Assembly (NCBI GenBank): GCA_026745465.1
Contig: JACYXH010000826.1
Span: 5,458,724-5,522,723, forward strand
Source of the DNA: Lota lota
Taxonomy: Eukaryota > Chordata > Actinopteri > Gadiformes > Lotidae
Reading direction: 5' to 3'
DNA length: 64,000 bases
The notes beneath the pieces were generated by a model. That model did no database searches, was not told the DNA's origin, and saw nothing but the letters and a program-made list of their open reading frames with translations. This document shows positions 4,143-46,566 of this stretch, piece after piece; position 1 is the first letter of the stretch; every line of letters starts with the position of its first letter. A program made the translations under genes and the position numbers.

Positions 4143-4470
4143 TTGTTGTGTAATAACCCTAATTTCAGACTCACGATGAGAGAGTTGTCAGAAGAAAGCT
4201 TGAGAATTTCCTGTGAAGGGAAACGCTTCACAAGGAAAATAACAGAATTGAGACTTATATTGAAGCTCAAACCTAAATGTCTTTCTTTTTTCATACACCA
4301 TTTTCATTTCATAACCATAACGGGTTTTTCATTTAATTACGTTTTTCCGTATCTTCTTTTTTAAAGCAAGAGATTAAATAATGACACCCTCTCGCAAAAA
4401 ACAAACAAACACAAAACACACACACAAACACACGTCTTAATTAGAGGACTGCAGCTGCAGCGTGTCTCAC

Positions 4471-4690
4471 CTGCGCTGGCTGGCCTCTGAGGTAACCCTG
4501 GCGACACGCTGTTCCTCTGCAACGCTGGTTGCTGTGGTGACAGCAGGCGTGGGTCTGTGAGGGGGGAGGTGGTGAAGGAAGCGGTGGTGACCAGAGTGCC
4601 CCCCGGGTTGTTGGTGAACTGGAGTGCCACGTTCTGATTGGACACGGGCACTGTGACTGGCATGGAGAAGGTGGGCTGTGGGACGGACGA
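4471..4690 (-). CDS. mef2d: mef2d exon 4: start of transactivation region
   Basis: This exon has 220 bases and encodes 73 residues plus one base. It starts SSVPQPTFSMPVTVPVSNQ and contains TDPRLLSPQQPALQRNSVSP and GLPQRPASAG. This is the MEF2D segment just after the alpha exon, at the start of the transactivation domain. The LLSP and RNSVSP motifs correspond to the proline-directed and PKA-type serine sites known around residues 180 and 190 of mammalian MEF2D. The acceptor is CCATCAG before TCG at 4690, with a good pyrimidine tract upstream. The donor is GCAG followed by GTGAGA at 4470, and the intron is phase 1. It joins in frame to the exon at 3532 to give SAGAMLGGDL. Confidence 0.95.
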
Positions 4691-4767
4691 CTGATGGAGA
4701 CAGGGAGAAGGCGGGGCACTTAGGGGCATTTCAACAACTGACACATGAATGAGAATACACAACCCCC

Positions 4768-4803
<36 letters not shown>

Positions 4804-5815
4804 CTCTATTTAATCTATTTGATTATATGTTCAAATGTCAAAGATACATTTATTATCCCACCCTTTCGACATTTCCCACCAGAATAATTGCATAGTGTTG
4901 GACAAAGTGGTGTCATTTCACTAATCAATGACCCAGTTGATCCCAAACCCACAAAAGGTCATTACTAAAACTAAGGTAACTGTTTGTAATGTCATGTGAA
5001 TAACAACAATATATTATCATTTTTGTTTCTTTTTACATACATTTAATTCAAAATAACAACAGATTCCTGCATTGGTAAATCCGCACACATACACTTCCAT
5101 ACATACCCCCATACAGAAACACAACACACATGCTCAGTATTGCACACACTGCTTAGTATTGGCATGCGACGTGGCTCGGAAGAAGTGATGGCCTGCCCAT
5201 GCCATGCCAGGTTAATTTCTCCCCCCCCCCCATCCTACACCTCCACCTTCTACAGGGCTGGTACAGGTGGCTGAACACCATGCTCTCTACTTCTATACCC
5301 CTCACACAGCAGGTTATTCCAGAGGGAGGAAGGGGACGGGGGAAGAAGGGGAAGGGCAGACAGACAGAGGGGGGAGGGGAGATAAATAGAGAGGGAGGGG
5401 GGAGATAAATAGAGAGGGAGGGGGGAGAGAGGGAGATATGGGGAGGGAGAGGATGAGAGAGATAGCGAGAGAGAGAGAGAGAGACAGTTTGGAAAATAGA
5501 GAAAGTAAAGAAAGAAAAAAAGGCTGACCGTTTTCTTTTTGTTTATATCTAGCTTAGCTTACTTTATAATGGATCTTTTCTGAGGTACCACTAGTATCTT
5601 AAATCCCTAGAACTGAGAGGAAAGGGAATGGAATAACATAACTACACTGTGAAAAGAAAAGTCTTGACTTTTAATGAAATAATAAAGTTTTCTCCAAGCT
5701 CAGGCCCAACACGTCCCACACCCCTGATGATGTGACGTCCGTGACTGAGCAGACATCACAGAGACCAGGGAGAACCAAACGCAAAGGGGCCCCGGAAATG
5801 TCCGGCAATCGGCTG

Positions 5816-7836: not shown

Positions 7837-8544
7837 ATTTGGGAATTAATTCCACTGTGCTCAAGCTCTAGGTTGACACGGAAATTTTACAATGGAGGAA
7901 TTCAGCAACCGTATTGTCTGTTTTAAAAATAAACCACATTTTCTGACTCTCAGCGGTTTTAATATTAATGGCTTCTTTACGGGAAACATGTGAATCAGAG
8001 CGAATAAGGAGTTCACATCCCACCGGTTGCATACGACCATTTTCCCTCTCTGAAAATGTATCTGGATCTTGAAGATTAACCAAGCGTCACACCTTAGTTT
8101 TACATTCGTAACTATTTTTATACATATTTAATAATCGAGCACAACCACAATAATGCTGGCGTGGGAATAGGACTGTCTGGTATGACTAAGTGTGCAATTT
8201 TTCGCTAAATAGCGCATGGAAGTTGGACGTTAATAATGCTCTTTTTTTTCTTTTCCCAAATGCATTGCATGTAAGCTCGACTGAGAATTGGACGCGTATC
8301 TCCTGCATCAAGAGCACAGTTCTCGCAATTTTCCAGGGCCTACACTGTCAAGATGTACTATAACCGGAACACAAACCGCCAGCAAGAGCTCTCTGTGGCA
8401 AACTAACTTCCCCTCTCTCTCTGGCCAGTCCCTATAACTCTCGCCCAGCCTCAGGAGACATTTTAGTACAAGTGGGATTAAGCGTGTATATCCCAGCCCC
8501 TAGCTGTCAGGGCAAGGATTATGGTGCGGTCGGTTTAAGAAGGG

Positions 8545-10731: not shown

Positions 10732-11054
10732 CTGGGGTTCCTCACCGAGAAGGACACAGGTCAGAGGTCAGGGGAGAGGGGAGGGGCAGGAGGAGGAGGG
10801 AGAAGAGAGAGGAAGATAAGGAGAAAGAGGGAGAGAAAGATGAAGAGGAGGGGAGAGGTAGAGGAGAAAAAGGAAGAGAGGAGGGAGAGACAGGAACGGA
10901 GAGGAGGAAGGAGAGAGAGCAAACAGGGAGACAGGTAGAGGAATGAGGGAGAAAGAGAGAGGAGGTGGACGAGGAGGAGGTGGAGGAGGGAGAGAGAGAG
11001 AGAGGAGAAAGGGTGGGTTAGATTAAGTGATAATAAAAGTGTGAAGGTACTCAC
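10732..11054 (-). other. 323-base intron separating alpha-2 from alpha-1
   Basis: This short intron is GA-rich on the plus strand from about 10770 to 11020, so it is almost continuous pyrimidine in the pre-mRNA, ending at the alpha-1 acceptor. Such CU-rich sequence next to alternative exons is the typical substrate for PTB-family repressors. The link to mutual exclusion of alpha-1 and alpha-2 is inferred. Confidence 0.85.
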
Positions 11055-11189
11055 GCCGTAGCGTTTGAAGAGGACGTCCAGGTCCTCGTTCTTGCGGTAC
11101 TTGTCGTCGGTTAGCGGGCTTTGGTCGATGGAGTCGTCGCCGTCTGGCTCAGGGCTGTTGCAGCCATTAAAGCCTTTCTTTCGTAACGT
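11055..11189 (-). CDS. mef2d: mef2d alternative exon alpha-2 (muscle type), residues 87-131
   Basis: This exon encodes 45 residues, TLRKKGFNGCNSPEPD... ending DLDVLFKRYG. This is the alpha-2 form of the third coding exon, which in vertebrates replaces alpha-1 late in muscle differentiation. It is known for mammals that the alpha-2 form lacks PKA target residues carried by alpha-1 and so escapes HDAC recruitment. Acceptor CTTCAG precedes ACG at 11189, and donor GTGAGT follows GGC at 11054. The exon is a multiple of three and phase 0 on both sides. It is one residue shorter than the 46-residue mammalian version as I recall it, the gap falling in the KYRK-NEDLD region. The alternative exon alpha-1 lies 323 bases downstream in the transcript. 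Confidence 0.95.
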
Positions 11190-11325
11190 CTGAAGCCGGT
11201 TAGGATTAAATGGAGGAAGAGGAGGAGAAGGAGGGATGTTTACATATGACACGTTAACACACGGGGGAACTCGTTTTTGCGGTGAAAGCCTTTTTGTCCA
11301 CTTAGTCATGAAATATGTCTTAAAG

Positions 11326-12048: not shown

Positions 12049-12101
12049 TGCCACAATGTGTTATTATTATTATTATTATTATTACTGCTGTAAAAATTTA
12101 T

Positions 12102-21888: not shown

Positions 21889-22467
<579 letters not shown>

Positions 22468-25915: not shown

Positions 25916-25969
25916 TTGTCTGTTGCGTTCATCGGTGATCCTTTGGATTTGGATCTTTTTCCTCCCCAT
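25916..25969 (-). CDS. mef2d: mef2d first coding exon (residues 1-18, start of MADS box)
   Basis: This exon encodes MGRKKIQIQRITDERNRQ, the invariant N-terminal arm and first part of the MADS box shared by all vertebrate MEF2 proteins. In MEF2 the arm lies in the DNA minor groove and helix alpha-1 contacts the major groove. The ATG sits in a CCATGG-type context (A at 25969), is the only start that gives the conserved N terminus, and begins the family at its usual residue. The exon ends in CAA followed by a GTAAGA donor at 25915, so the intron is phase 0. Directly past the donor the intron becomes a CT-rich run on the transcribed sense (25801-25905). The protein continues in frame with the exon at 22194. 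Confidence 0.97.
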
Positions 25970-26344
25970 GGTTGCGGTGTGGTGGTGGGATGGGACAGGA
26001 GGGGAGGAGGGGGAGGCAGAGGTTAGAGGTCTCAGAGGACCTGCAAAGGCGTTCTGGTAGCTAGTCTGACGCCCTCCAGGCAATGGGTGTCAGAGCCAGG
26101 CTTCAGTTGCTCTGTTGGTCTGGATGTCTGGGGCAGCAGGGAAGGGGGGTCGGGTTGTCTGTAACCCCAGAAGTTATATTGCAAAGAGGGAGCGGGTGGG
26201 CAGAAGATTTGACAGGGCTGGGGGGCTTAGGGTGTGTCCGGCCACGTCCCGGTTCAGATCGTGGTCCACATCGTGGAAGATCGTCGACTCGCCGGCTTCA
26301 CTCAGGTCCTCGCACCGGCTCCTTCAGTTGTCGTCACGCGGCCT
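25970..26344 (-). other. mef2d: mef2d 5'UTR portion of start-codon exon (acceptor inferred)
   Basis: Sequence immediately upstream of the ATG is repeat-poor and GC-rich, as expected of a 5'UTR. Read on the minus strand, a pyrimidine tract followed by CTCCAG ends at 26345, giving a plausible acceptor for a leader exon spliced from further upstream. MEF2 genes usually have non-coding leader exons joined to the start-codon exon, which is known of the family. The exact acceptor is my inference, and an upstream TSS within this stretch is not excluded. Confidence 0.45.
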
Positions 26345-26699
26345 CTGGAGAGCAGAAGGAGAACCGGAAGACGGAACATGGTCACAAACCCGGGAAAGAA
26401 ACACACAACGCCAGCTAGATGAGCGTAGTAATATATGCACCTCTCCCCCTCAATATAACAGAGACTAGACCCAACCTAGCATGGTTACTCAGCATACATT
26501 TTACACTCCAAGAACAGGAAATACCGCCTGTTTCTTGTTGTTGTTTTTTTACGTCAAAGTAGTACACGAAAATATGTGTTGTGTTGTTTTAATGATGATG
26601 CGGGTACTTTGGGAGGGGGGAGGTTGGGGTTCTCTGGTTAAACAGGAAAACACTTCTCATGGGGATAGCGTTTTCCGTGAGAATACAGTGACGGAGGAG

Positions 26700-26960
26700 G
26701 GGGATGGAGTTTGCGGTCCGTGCGCGAATGAGTGTCGAGGCCCTTAGGGGGCCGCAGGGAAGAAGGCTGTGCTGTGTCAGCTTCATTAGAGCCATCCCCG
26801 CCACATCACTGATCTGCCGGTCGCCCGCGGCAACCGGCCGGCCCATGCCCCGGACTAGCCTGACACACCGAATGTGTGTTCCCCCCCCCCCCCCCCCCCC
26901 CAATGGAGTGCAAGGCTCAGCAGAGTGGAGCCGGGCAGAACGCAGGCTAGCCTCGACACG
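26700..26960 (-). promoter_or_regulatory. GC- and CpG-rich block upstream of mef2d start-codon exon
   Basis: This is a compact GC-rich stretch with many CpGs (around 26720-26850 and 26905-26965), interrupted by a 21-base poly-C run at 26881-26901. It stands out from the AT-rich surroundings and could be part of a CpG island or alternative promoter of mef2d. No splice or TATA signal was strong enough to define an exon here. Confidence 0.3.
26881..26901 (+). repeat. poly-C run (21)
   Basis: Homopolymer of 21 C within the GC-rich block. Confidence 0.97.
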
Positions 26961-27384
26961 CTACGACAATCGTATTTTCATTTGTTGTTATATTGCGTTG
27001 ATGACAGTGATATCAGGGTAAAACAATCTGTGCTTCAATAACGTTTTGTCTTCTCAAGAGTATTAAAGCCTGAAGATGGTTTTTCATATCGACCAAAAAA
27101 AGTCAGCATTGCTCAAGTTAGTGTATTGTTCGAAAGGCAATGTTCGAAATACAATGTTAACATTACGTTCTACGGCTGAACAGAAGCAATTCCCTGACAC
27201 TACATGTCGTCATTCCAGACCAGCAAACTCTTCTCCTGATAAGTCATTGACCACTAAAATAACTAAAAACGAATTATTGACCCGTAATCGACTATTGTAA
27301 CATTGTATCAGAGCTTTCAGTCAATCAATATTACCTCCTTGCAAGGTTCGGCAATTTCCTCAAGGCTACGCTTTGTTAGTTTAC

Positions 27385-27560
27385 CTGAGGTGAACCGATT
27401 CAATTTGAACCCAAAGTTACAGAGGGTTTGCTATTCGGGTAAGTTTCACATGCTATTCAATGAGGATGCTCAACAATCTGCTGCCAGCAGCCATGGCGGC
27501 TCTGTGGGCAGGCATGTAGTAGTTGATTTGCTCCCGTTCTAAAAAGGGAAAGACGGCAAC
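27385..27560 (-). other. candidate alternative leader exon with GCCGCCATGG start
   Basis: On the minus strand a CCTCAG/GTAAAC donor ends at 27385. Upstream of it a perfect Kozak/YY1-like GCCGCCATGG (27500-27491) begins a 13-codon open frame that ends in TAG at 27453. With the MEF2-site cluster 160-190 bp further upstream this could be an alternative mef2d leader exon carrying a short uORF. Everything beyond the motifs is inference. Confidence 0.2.
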
Positions 27561-27642
27561 GAAAGCATTTGCACTTCCATGAATGAAAGCACGTCCGGAG
27601 GAGGGACAGCCACAGGGTTGAGGGCCATTTTAAGCCTCACTA

Positions 27643-27693
27643 CTATTTGTAGTTCAGCCTTAAAAATAGCGGCACTATTTTTAATGTGTGTTT
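27643..27693. promoter_or_regulatory. cluster of MEF2 sites with perfect palindromic pair
   Basis: TTAAAAATAG at 27660-27669 and CTATTTTTAA at 27675-27684 are both perfect YTAWWWWTAR MEF2 sites and exact reverse complements, separated by CGGCA. A third, one-mismatch site CTATTTGTAG lies at 27643-27652, and a forkhead-type TGTTTAC follows near 27687. The cluster is 1.3 kb upstream of the start-codon exon of mef2d, in repeat-free sequence. Confidence 0.5.
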
Positions 27694-29728
27694 ACATGGA
27701 AATACACTGACAGTAGGAGCCGAGTCATTGCATTAGCGTTGGAGCATCAGAGCCTAGAGTGGAGTGCAGGCCGCACGACATTGTTTGCATTCCCTCTACC
27801 TGGGAGAACCCCAAAAGTATGTGGCCTATTTAGACCTTTGCTACTGGAACATAGACTGAATGATTCTGGTGCCCTGACAGTGACGCTGCTGTGGGGCTCC
27901 GAACGCATGCTTGCTTTGAGTGGATGCAATTGGCTTAGCCTTGGTGATGAGTTCCCCATGAATTATGCACTGGGATGTTTGGCTTGGAGGCTTCGCGGGG
28001 GTGGAAGAGGGGTTGTACGGAAGGATGGGGGCTGTTAGTAATGTTTGTGTCATCCGTTTTTGGGGGGGAAAAGGGCCTTGAACTAAGTCTGGAAATGTTC
28101 GCATTGAATATGGTTATGAACGTGTTCTTAACTGTCTTATCTGCCTTTCCAATCCTTTCTATAACGTTTTTCATATTATCTATATATATTTTCAAATTAA
28201 TTTAGACTACTTAGCTTGGTATTTCTATGAGCCACTATTTTTATTACATTACATACCACTCAAAGACAATAAATTATAATATTGAATTATGGCAATGCCC
28301 TATTCTATAAGCCGTAATACCTTCTCCTCATAACATAATGTAGCTTCGAAGTGTTTGCTGTGAACGTGATTACAATCCGCTGATAGCAGTTCATTTTCCC
28401 GCCTGTGTGCAGCGGCCACAACAATCAAGCCAGGATATTGCACCGGCAGCGGAGAGGAAACATTGGTCCAGAGTTCAAAGACAGCACTCAGTGGGATTTG
28501 TCTTTAGGGCTGCAGGCTGATCACACATGAAAAGGCTGCTTTATCTGCCCGGGGTGGTCAAGCCTCGACCTTTTTACCCTTGATACTGCCGAGGCTCACT
28601 TCCCATGTCTGATGTCAGACAGCATCTTTGCTCTCGCTTAGAAAGGGACAGGGGGCCTGGAGTGTGTCTGCCGCTTCGCCGAGCACAAGAGCGCGGCGGA
28701 GGGAACAGGCCAGGGCACAGATAAACACTGATAACAGGGATTCCACTGGGGGCCCATAATAGAACCCTGTGGGGAACCTTGCTTTGTTTCATTGTCTTTT
28801 GGTTTCAACAAGGTGTTTGCATCCACAGGTGGGGCCGGGTTGATATCATGGATCAATTACAATGTGTGTGAATTGTGTATAGACTGAACCATTTGAAAGC
28901 AACTTTCAGAAATTATAATTGTAAACTGGTGCACATAATGTTAAACTGTGTCTTTGAAAAGGATTGTTTTGTATACAGATGTCAAAACACTGCCAGTTAG
29001 ACCTTAAGTAATCCCCCTGAGTTAAGACTTGGAGGTTCTGTATTGAAATGTAATCTGCCAAGTTACAAATGTTTTCTCCTTCTATGGGTTGAAATGTAAT
29101 CATCTAAATGCTAAATGCGTATGTATTTCGCTTTTGTTGTTTTTATAAAAGGCCTCTAGTGTTCTTTCCAAATGGGCAATATCCTAAAAGCAAGTTCACT
29201 GATTTTAATTGCCCTATTTTACTTAAAGTCAATAGCAAATTATGTGGAATTTCGAACATAACAAATTTCACAATCATGAATCAACAGGCATAATAAAACA
29301 TACTCACTGGCATAGCTAAACGCAAAAAATGCATTTGAAAATAAAATGGCACTGAGCTTGAACTTTTTTTTCTTATTAACAAAGCATCACCTAGTGCTCA
29401 TCACGGATTGAAAATAAGCACTTTAAGAGGAGGAAAAACATTTCCCATTAAATAAATAAAACGCATACACTGAGCTCCATGTAGGGCAGATCAGGTCACA
29501 AACAAGGGGAGACTTTCAGCAAAGATAAGTTCATGAAAGAACAGTTGAATGTTTCATTATCCCTGACATCTGTTGCAGTTGAGCATTTCATAGCATCATA
29601 GATGTCCTTTTGAAGCTGCTTGTATAGGAAGCCACAGTCCGCTAAAGCCACGGCCGTTTATTGACGCAGAGAAAGTAATAGCCTTTTATATACATATTTA
29701 TATATAGTTACATTTGTAGAAAGCAAAT

Positions 29729-30106
29729 TAGGCCTGCATGATGTGGACAATTTACCTTACTGCAATTATTTTAATTTGCCAGTTATTTTGATTTGCAGCA
29801 GCGATAGTTGGGTTTATCTTGATAAGGCAATTCAACATTCCCATTCAAAACTGGAAGTAGCACTAGGTAGAGAACGTGATTACCTGAACTAAAACATCCT
29901 ACTGTTGACCTTTATTTCAGAATAATTGTTGGTATTTAGTCAGACAATATTGGCAATAGGATTGCATTGATTCCTTGCATTTAAAAATATTAGCAAAAAG
30001 ACTCCACGTTGCAGCTTTCGCAATAGAATCCAACCTCTGCAATATAGGTGCTGAAGCCATTCATATTAAATACAATAATAAATCACGCAGCTATTGTGCA
30101 GCCCTA
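29729..30106. mobile_element. hAT-like miniature element
   Basis: The left end TAGGCCTGCATGATGTGGAC and reverse complement of the right end TAGGGCTGCACAATAGCTGC fit the TAGGGCTGCACGAT terminus of a widespread teleost hAT MITE family. Flanking 8-mers agree at only 5 of 8 positions, so the target duplication has decayed or is absent. Confidence 0.6.
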
Positions 30107-30497
30107 CAGGAAAATGTACAGCGCTACCATAACCCTCAATTACCAAGGACCAATCAGGGGTTAATTGCCCTTCCCGAAAAAGAGCCGCTTGACAATGGCA
30201 CAACGTTTCTCTTTTCCCCCTCTGGCCTGGGACCACAGAGTCTCTCTCTCTGCTCTAGGGCTGACCAGTCCAGACAGATCCAGACCCACCAGCGCCACTC
30301 TAACAGATATGTCTAGATGTGTCAGCGGCTCCAGGAAAGGGAGCCGGTACTGTCTGAGTCATGACATACAGGACATGAAGTGGTCACATGCCCTCCAACA
30401 CAGGCCAGGAAATAATGTGTTGGTGTTTTTTTTTTTTTAAAGGGACAATTCTCTACATGTCTGAGCCATGCGGTGTGTTCAGAAATGACCTGGCATG

Positions 30498-41355: not shown

Positions 41356-42882
41356 CGACCAGCATGGCTCTCCTAATCCAAAGGACGTGTAGTATTGACC
41401 GGCCAGCCCCCGACTCCCACTCGCGCCTCGCCTCCCTGAGCTGTCACAGGCAAAGATCAAAGGTCACAAGTGGCAAGACGAACACCAACAGACGCAGCGA
41501 CAACCTGTTCCCTTAAACTGTATGGCCTCCATCAGCTGCCACCAGCAAGACCAACCCCCCCGTCTCGTCCCCCACACAAACACCAGATACACTACACACC
41601 AGATACACTACTGGCCCCCAACCAACACCACCTCAGATCCAGACACACTGGCTCCTGTCTTTCTGATGTTTTGTCCCACTTTTATTATTATTATTATTAT
41701 TATTAATTGAATATCACAATATCATCAATAAAATGGTACTTAGTTCTATAGATACATTTCCAGTAAAAGCACTCATAAAATATTAAAAATGTTTTATGTT
41801 TGCCTTTATTGCGATATGATGAGGCATACATACATTTGTACAATTGTACACCTCAAAATCCATAACAAAAGAGAGCTAGTTGTCACCTACATTCAGTGTC
41901 ATTATTCCTGAAGAGAAAACGTCTGTTTCTAGTGTTGAATTATACGCTATAGCCACGCATGCTGTTGTTTAGTCTGTGCTATTCGGGTTGGCAGTTGGCT
42001 GGCTGTATACCTTCATAGAAATAAACATGTGAATAGCAACTTGGGTCCATTTTTATGGTAACTACTTATAGTGTAATGCTTTTTTTGGAGATCATATTTG
42101 AATTGATGGATACAATACAAAACACATTTTCTTGTTGTGTTTCTTGTCTCTGAAACTCTGGAAAAACAGGAACAAAAACAGAATGACACCATGTGTCTTT
42201 GTGACTCATTTCCTCCCTGTTTAAAAAAAGACATACATTCAAGTAGTTCTTCTTGAATAACAATTTCAGCACCACTAGCTATATAATTTTTTTGAGTTGA
42301 GAGGGGAGTCGGGGGGGGAACTGAGAGTGGGCGGTGCTTCAACAGATACGCACGGCGAGACCCAACCGCCATGATGGCGCGACACACAGAGTGAGGCGGT
42401 GCTGCGGCACAAACGAGTGCCCATGGGGGCGCTGTTTGATGTTCAATGGGACAGGGAGGCCCCCCACACGGTCACTAACTCCCTACCTCCGTCTCTCACA
42501 GACACACACACACACAAACACTCATGCGCACACACACAAACCCTAGTAGTCCTAGTGACTATCATTAAACAACACACACACACACACATGCACACACACA
42601 CACACACACACTCTTCTCCTCAGAAACAGCTGACGTTTTAACAGGCTTACAACAGCTGACAGGCTACAGGTGGGGCAGAGGGGAAGCTTCCAGCCCCTCC
42701 CCACTCATTTAATACCCTTCAGCCACACACACACACACATTTGTGACTCCTGAGGAATTGTCCTCTGTTGAAGGCCTTCTTTTACCACTACATACAACCC
42801 AGACACACACATGCCACACTATGCATCGCACGCAGGCACACAGTCACACAGTCACAATGAAACACAAAGCTCTCCACACACA

Positions 42883-44902: not shown

Positions 44903-46566
44903 ATTGTGGGATAAAAAACGGTATACCAAGGTATTTAGAAATACCGAAGGTATGATATTAAATACCGTCAAAATTAAAATGCACCTCTTTCTGTTCAACT
45001 TTTTTTCCGACATCATATGAATACATTTTTAATTATGTTGATTTGTATTTTGGCAACGTTTTAAAGCAGGATATATATTTAAATAGTACAAAATAAAGTA
45101 TTCGCAGTTGCATTGTTGTGAAGACTGAAATATGTTTGTTCACCAACAATTAGAGGATGGCCCGGGTGGGCGGAGTTTTTCAACAATGACCGCCCGCCCG
45201 GAACGTCCCGACATCAAAACTGAAAGATACATTTATAGCAGCTAGTGATGTGCAATACCACTTATTTCCTTTCCGATCCGATACCAAGTAAAAACCAGGC
45301 TGGTATCGCCGATACCAATACCGATACCGATACTTTTTGCATATTGTATTTCTTGTATCATTTTTTACAACTTCTACAATCATGAGCAACTGTTACAACT
45401 GCTGCTATTCAAGGTAATAATATATATTATTGTTTGTATTGTTATTGTTTATATTATATATTATTATTGTTTGTTAATATATATTAACAAATAGTTCCTA
45501 TCACTGGGTATTTTCCTGGTGATAGCGTAGCTACTTTCTGTTGTGTTCCTTTGATGATAAAATATACATTTTCCCCCAAATTAATGAGTTGGGATATCGA
45601 TGTTTTTATATGAGAATCAATCCTAGAACAGGGAATGTTGGGATCGGCAGTATCAATATTTTGGGATCGATCCGCACATCACTAACAGCAGCATACTGCT
45701 GCTGTGGTGGTGTATCAAAACAATCACACATCTCAAGTTTGAAAGTATATAATTGTTTAAGTTAGAAAGATGTTGGATATTCAACAGATATTGACGCTCC
45801 GAATTACAGCGACCTGACGCGGGGAACTAAATCACCGGTAGGAGTCCAGCGATGTAAATCTGCCCAGGAGACGGTCGGGCAGCAGCACTACTCTTCATAG
45901 AGCCATGGTTTAGCCCATATTTCTATGCAAGTGGCGAATTACAAAGAACCCTGCCCTAAACAATCGCCTAACTAAAACGCCATTAACCCGGATACATCTC
46001 ACGTTACAAAATGTCCGCAATGGATTAAAATCGCTGTTTAGAAGTGTATCCAGCTACAACCGTAAAAAGCAGGCCAAAAACAGCGTGGCCAGTGGAGCTC
46101 CGGTGTGGGTGTAACGCACATAGACTGTATATAATACAGGTGCAACTTACTTTCCATATGTGCACATTGGTGGAAACTATCGCTGACTGAAAAACAAAAC
46201 GAGTGCACAAGTTGGTCCTACTCGTTGAGATTTGGACCGAATCTACGGAAGAACGGCGCTTGTGTTCTATCTATTCATATTATATAGGCCATACATATTT
46301 AAGACTTGTCGAAGTTGGCAAATTGCATATTAGACACACAGCATTGTAGGCTAGACAATGTCATACATGCTACAATGACTTCTATCACCAGTAGCTCAGC
46401 TTTAATTTTTTAATTTTTAATTAATTTATTATATATATAATTTATTTTTATATAATTATATATTTATATAAATTATATATATATAAATTTTTTTACACAA
46501 ATACAGTCATATACCGTATGTCAGGAAGGTACGAAGGTATGAAAAAATTGATACCGCCCAAGCCTA
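44903..46566. mobile_element. outer hAT-like element, interrupted
   Basis: The right end, reverse-complemented, begins CTAGGCTTGGGCGGTATC. The left part reads GGTATACCAAGGTATTTAG and AATACCGAAGGTATGA, the usual interior of a fish hAT family with a TTGGGCGGTAT terminus. The left boundary is approximate. A second element is inserted at 45243-45684. The segment 46410-46495 is almost pure A+T. Confidence 0.45.
45243..45684. mobile_element. inner hAT-like MITE with 8-bp target duplication
   Basis: The 442-bp element has TAGTGATGTGC at both ends in inverted orientation (45243 and 45684). It is flanked by ATAGCAGC and ACAGCAGC, a 7 of 8 target duplication. The interior has the CCGATACCGATACC motif common in fish hAT elements and a 22-bp perfect palindrome centred near 45484. 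Confidence 0.7.

Follow-up and report, generated by a model that had tools for sequence, protein, structure and literature searches.

Directly upstream of the mef2d start-codon exon, in the 64-kb stretch of DNA analysed here (hereafter, the window), whose sequence suggests a fish as its source, we found two exact MEF2 consensus sites in perfect inverted orientation. We tentatively read this pair as a candidate cis-regulatory element of mef2d that is MEF2-responsive and probably autoregulatory, a reading that we prefer, at somewhat less than even confidence, because the sites match the consensus well, are arranged symmetrically, and lie at a MEF2 gene, and because the gene family offers precedents. 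Site A (TTAAAAATAG, 27660-27669) and site B (CTATTTTTAA, 27675-27684) each fit YTAWWWWTAR without a mismatch and are perfect reverse complements of one another, forming the left and right arms (100% complementary) of an inverted repeat with a 5-nt spacer that was read directly as CGGCA (27670-27674). The sequence-only reading of this DNA had described two exact sites, perfect inversion, and a 5-bp spacer, all of which hold at 27660-27684. It had also described a third, one-mismatch MEF2-like site and a TGTTTAC motif nearby: the motif scan placed the former (CTATTTGTAG) at 27643-27652, and the latter, which we take to be of forkhead type, on the plus strand at 27689-27695, 4 bp from site B. TGTTTAC is thus present as claimed, although the end given for the cluster (27693) falls short of it by 2 bp. 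Using an inverted-repeat search (seed 9, minimum length 10, maximum distance 60), sites A and B were recovered as the sole inverted repeat within 26300-29000. The two sites are 15 bp apart centre to centre, which at 10.5 bp per turn corresponds to 514 degrees, i.e., an offset of 154 degrees, so the earlier arithmetic that put them on nearly opposite faces of the helix is right. Both sites also conform to YTA(A/T)4TAR, the MEF2 consensus as given in the passage available from PMC3716644, where MEF2D is said to bind some such sites in vitro. The sequence of site B is identical to a Mef2 motif listed for the mouse Tceal7 promoter in a passage of PMC8945367, and it also appears among candidate Mef2 sites in schistosome genes in a passage of PMC3250504.

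The identification of the gene as mef2d is supported by two exons on the minus strand. The first of these (25916-26344; splice sites predicted from sequence only) contains 5' UTR and the start codon (ATG at 25969) and encodes MGRKKIQIQRITDERNRQ, with 18 codons counted from the ATG ending at 25916. The next coding exon (21991-22194) encodes the remainder of the MADS/MEF2 domain (Pfam SRF-TF, E-value 2.1e-20). When the domain was joined from both exons, its top match among solved structures was MEF2D (E-value 1.6e-54), compared to 6.6e-51 for the best MEF2A entry and 1.7e-50 for MEF2C, and the gene name proposed earlier agrees with this closest match. Pfam was run on three frames and returned SRF-TF in one, HJURP_C in a second (10761-11309), and no domain in the third (4364-4822). 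The HJURP_C domain is found in MEF2 proteins. With MEF2D as the best match, the pair lies at a MEF2 gene: measured from its centre (27672), the ATG exon begins (predicted 5' end, 26344) 1,328 bp away, matching the distance of about 1.3 kb claimed for the cluster, and the ATG itself follows at 1,703 bp. Other vertebrate mef2 genes have non-coding first exons further upstream, and the A/B pair would be intronic if such exons of mef2d lie further upstream here. A CpG-richer stretch is located just 5' of the ATG exon at 26501-27100 (the 300 bp beginning at 26701 have a GC content of 0.62 and an observed/expected CpG ratio of 0.76), possibly representing an alternative or separate promoter. Also upstream of this exon, 26881-26901 consists of 21 consecutive G residues on the minus strand, read as C on the plus strand. 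A composition filter passed 167 stop-to-stop frames with a minimum of 70 codons; visual inspection of those that began after 26 kb or exceeded 100 codons revealed no recognisable coding exon of another gene between 28 and 64 kb.

According to the preferred reading, the A/B pair would be a small MEF2-responsive cis-regulatory element. We infer that MEF2 dimers, formed by MEF2D itself or by its paralogues, may occupy A and B on roughly opposite faces of the helix. Once bound, they would switch mef2d on, or repress it when in complex with class IIa HDACs, and the promoter served would be that of mef2d. The outcome would be feedback on mef2d, presumably in muscle or neurons. A more specific version, in which two cooperative dimers on opposite faces form a self-sensing switch and the HDAC-bound share sets the threshold for the gene's own transcription, would be very unlikely on our assessment; this layout was not found for any MEF2 gene in a search of the open-licence literature. 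Nor did that search recover a paper that deals with the A/B element or with any paired, inverted MEF2 sites at mef2d. If functional, the pair would be a single precise and readily mutated element through which mef2d feedback is controlled, and, because its geometry is fixed, cooperation between two MEF2 dimers could be tested directly on it.

The main rival of the MEF2-responsive reading is chance, i.e., an AT-rich inverted pair that matches a permissive, self-palindromic consensus and was spotted for its nearness to a MEF2 gene, and we regard this as quite possible. The permissive and self-palindromic nature of the MEF2 consensus counts against the preferred reading, as does the post hoc recognition that a MEF2 gene is close by. 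The number of sites in the window points in the same direction. The sequence-only reading had noticed five exact YTAWWWWTAR matches, a count that has to be replaced by 14, whereas its expectation of about four was right for whole-window shuffles (mean 4.19), none of which reached 14 (0/100). With shuffling in 500-bp blocks the mean rose to 8.1 exact sites and 14 were reached in 19/400 cases, and therefore local AT-richness accounts for much of the site excess. Close pairs of exact sites (spacer 0-30) occurred in 1.25%, 4.25%, and 8.75% of cases when the block size was 4000, 1000, and 500 bp, respectively (400 shuffles each). The window has 18 perfect 10-bp inverted repeats of whatever sequence, whether other than A/B or the same, counting those with loops of at most 30 bp and arms with three or more different letters and merging overlaps by eye. 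The window contains a second close pair of exact sites at 7923-7968 (TTAAAAATAA and TTAATATTAA, with starts 36 bp apart at 7923 and 7959), which are not mutually inverted; it lies downstream, in the mef2d gene region, and is counted on the side of chance.

It is the combination of close spacing and inversion that chance reproduces poorly. A perfectly inverted close pair was absent from all shuffles at each of the three block sizes (0/400 each), which bears out the earlier claim that the perfect inversion is non-random. Likewise, local shuffles of 26346-30345 (n = 4000) yielded close pairs in 0.175% of cases and no inverted close pairs, and the analytic expectation of perfect inverted consensus pairs is 0.0001-0.0017 per window.

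Genome-wide counts bear on both sides of this question. A search of the 575-Mb genome for the exact A/B arms, whatever the 5 bp between them, returned a single place, the A/B pair itself, compared to zero occurrences of the reversed-pattern control and a Markov expectation of 0.001-0.006 (scaled by hand), for a pattern that was chosen after it had been seen. The uniqueness of the exact pair argues against chance. However, generic consensus pairs with a 5-bp spacer are not rare in real sequence, being found at 228 places in the 575 Mb versus 148 for a control read backwards. Rarity among shuffles was rejected as proof on its own, given the 228 real spacer-5 pairs compared to about 2 to 27 predicted by Markov models (scaled by hand): such pairs are commoner in real sequence than among shuffles. 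Among 50 listed spacer-5 places, nine are perfect inversions, all with TA- or TTA-type arms; if the listed places are representative, the genome would contain about 41 perfect inversions with a 5-bp spacer (scaled by hand). The spacer of the A/B pair sets it apart from most of the listed places, with four of its five nucleotides being G or C, whereas three or more G/C were found in just six of the 50 listed pairs. Five of the nine perfect inversions share the motif TTATATATAG-N5-CTATATATAA and resemble one another in their spacers (examples among the listed places are G000:C54:250235-250259 and G000:C80:29431-29455); this motif may be part of a repeat family.

The motifs around the pair were compared to their background frequencies. 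One-mismatch MEF2 sites are frequent (174 in the window, 0.27 per 100 bp), and therefore the third site adds little to the pair; we rejected it as strong support. TGTTTAC occurs 19 times in the window when both strands are counted (0.03 per 100 bp). When 51-bp clusters were scored by exact and one-mismatch sites, the A/B cluster (score 5) ranked among the best 12; the equal or higher scores among these 12 lie in three AT-rich simple stretches, unlike the A/B cluster. The AT-rich simple stretches at 12061-12076, 41682-41700, and 46410-46477 carry dense clusters of exact and one-mismatch MEF2 consensus matches and give rise to false positives when sequence is scanned for motifs. We also scanned 27501-27800 for 15 other motif types and found an E-box CATTTG (27566), a TEAD/MCAT core (27788), and NFAT cores (27547 and 27698), with no match to CArG, MEF3, RUNX, CRE, GATA, AP1, CRX, NRL, ROR, SP1, or TATA patterns in this region. 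With such sparse motif company, the region is unlike a dense muscle enhancer. The description of the surrounding sequence as repeat-free stands for the two things that were examined, i.e., tandem repeats, none of which was found over the A/B site, and the uniqueness of the exact pair.

A real element with another role, in which MEF2 acts on another promoter or gene, or in which the pair is used by forkhead factors or other factors that recognise AT-rich sites, is unlikely. The TGTTTAC motif close to site B is consistent with such a role, and the CpG-richer stretch could be a separate promoter that it would serve. However, no coding exon of a second gene was recognised by eye among the inspected frames in 28-64 kb, and the exact MEF2 matches are better than the lone forkhead-type match. 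An RNA or mobile/repeat feature, i.e., a hairpin in the mef2d pre-mRNA or the remnant of an inverted repeat, is highly improbable: the mef2d-sense strand of 27630-27710 is predicted to fold at -20.9 kcal/mol, compared to a shuffle mean of -12.2 kcal/mol (z = -3.25, 0/200 shuffles), into the inverted pair and a second, neighbouring hairpin, but we set the RNA reading low because the inverted repeat itself forms its main hairpin and because the 64-kb window contains no match to an Rfam family at the gathering score, whereas the mobile/repeat version is opposed by the single-copy status of the exact pair and by the lack of a tandem repeat over it. ARAGORN found no tRNA in the window.

Feedback of MEF2 proteins on MEF2 genes has precedents in the literature, and a positive result for the MEF2-responsive reading would therefore be only mildly surprising. 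Because MEF2 autoregulation has already been published for other genes, a real element at mef2d would add one more case to an established class. With regard to mef2d itself, the available passages of PMC5840707, PMC3879063, and PMC3383949 contain nothing on its autoregulation. The transcriptional autoregulation of MEF2A is known to us from the title of Ramachandran et al. 2008, listed among the references of PMC5019174. It resembles the mef2d candidate in that a MEF2 gene is said to control its own transcription, whereas it concerns a different paralogue, and the likeness is at the level of the title, not of element architecture. Autoregulation of MEF2C is also mentioned in a passage of PMC5075806. 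Self-regulation of mouse Mef2c and autoregulation of Drosophila Mef2, both described in a passage of PMC5187760, share with the mef2d candidate a MEF2 protein acting on a MEF2 gene; they differ in that other genes are involved and that they were shown experimentally, whereas the mef2d candidate is known from its sequence alone. Two further systems include MEF2D. The negative feedback of Hdac9 on Mef2d, described in a passage of PMC8287581, is similar in that MEF2 activity is fed back via a MEF2 target gene, but it works through Hdac9 and not through a site in mef2d. In the IRF8-MEF2D autoregulatory circuit in leukaemia (PMC13036604), the feedback includes MEF2D itself, as it would at the A/B pair, whereas that circuit operates in human blood cells with IRF8 as a partner, and no DNA element is named in the cited passage.
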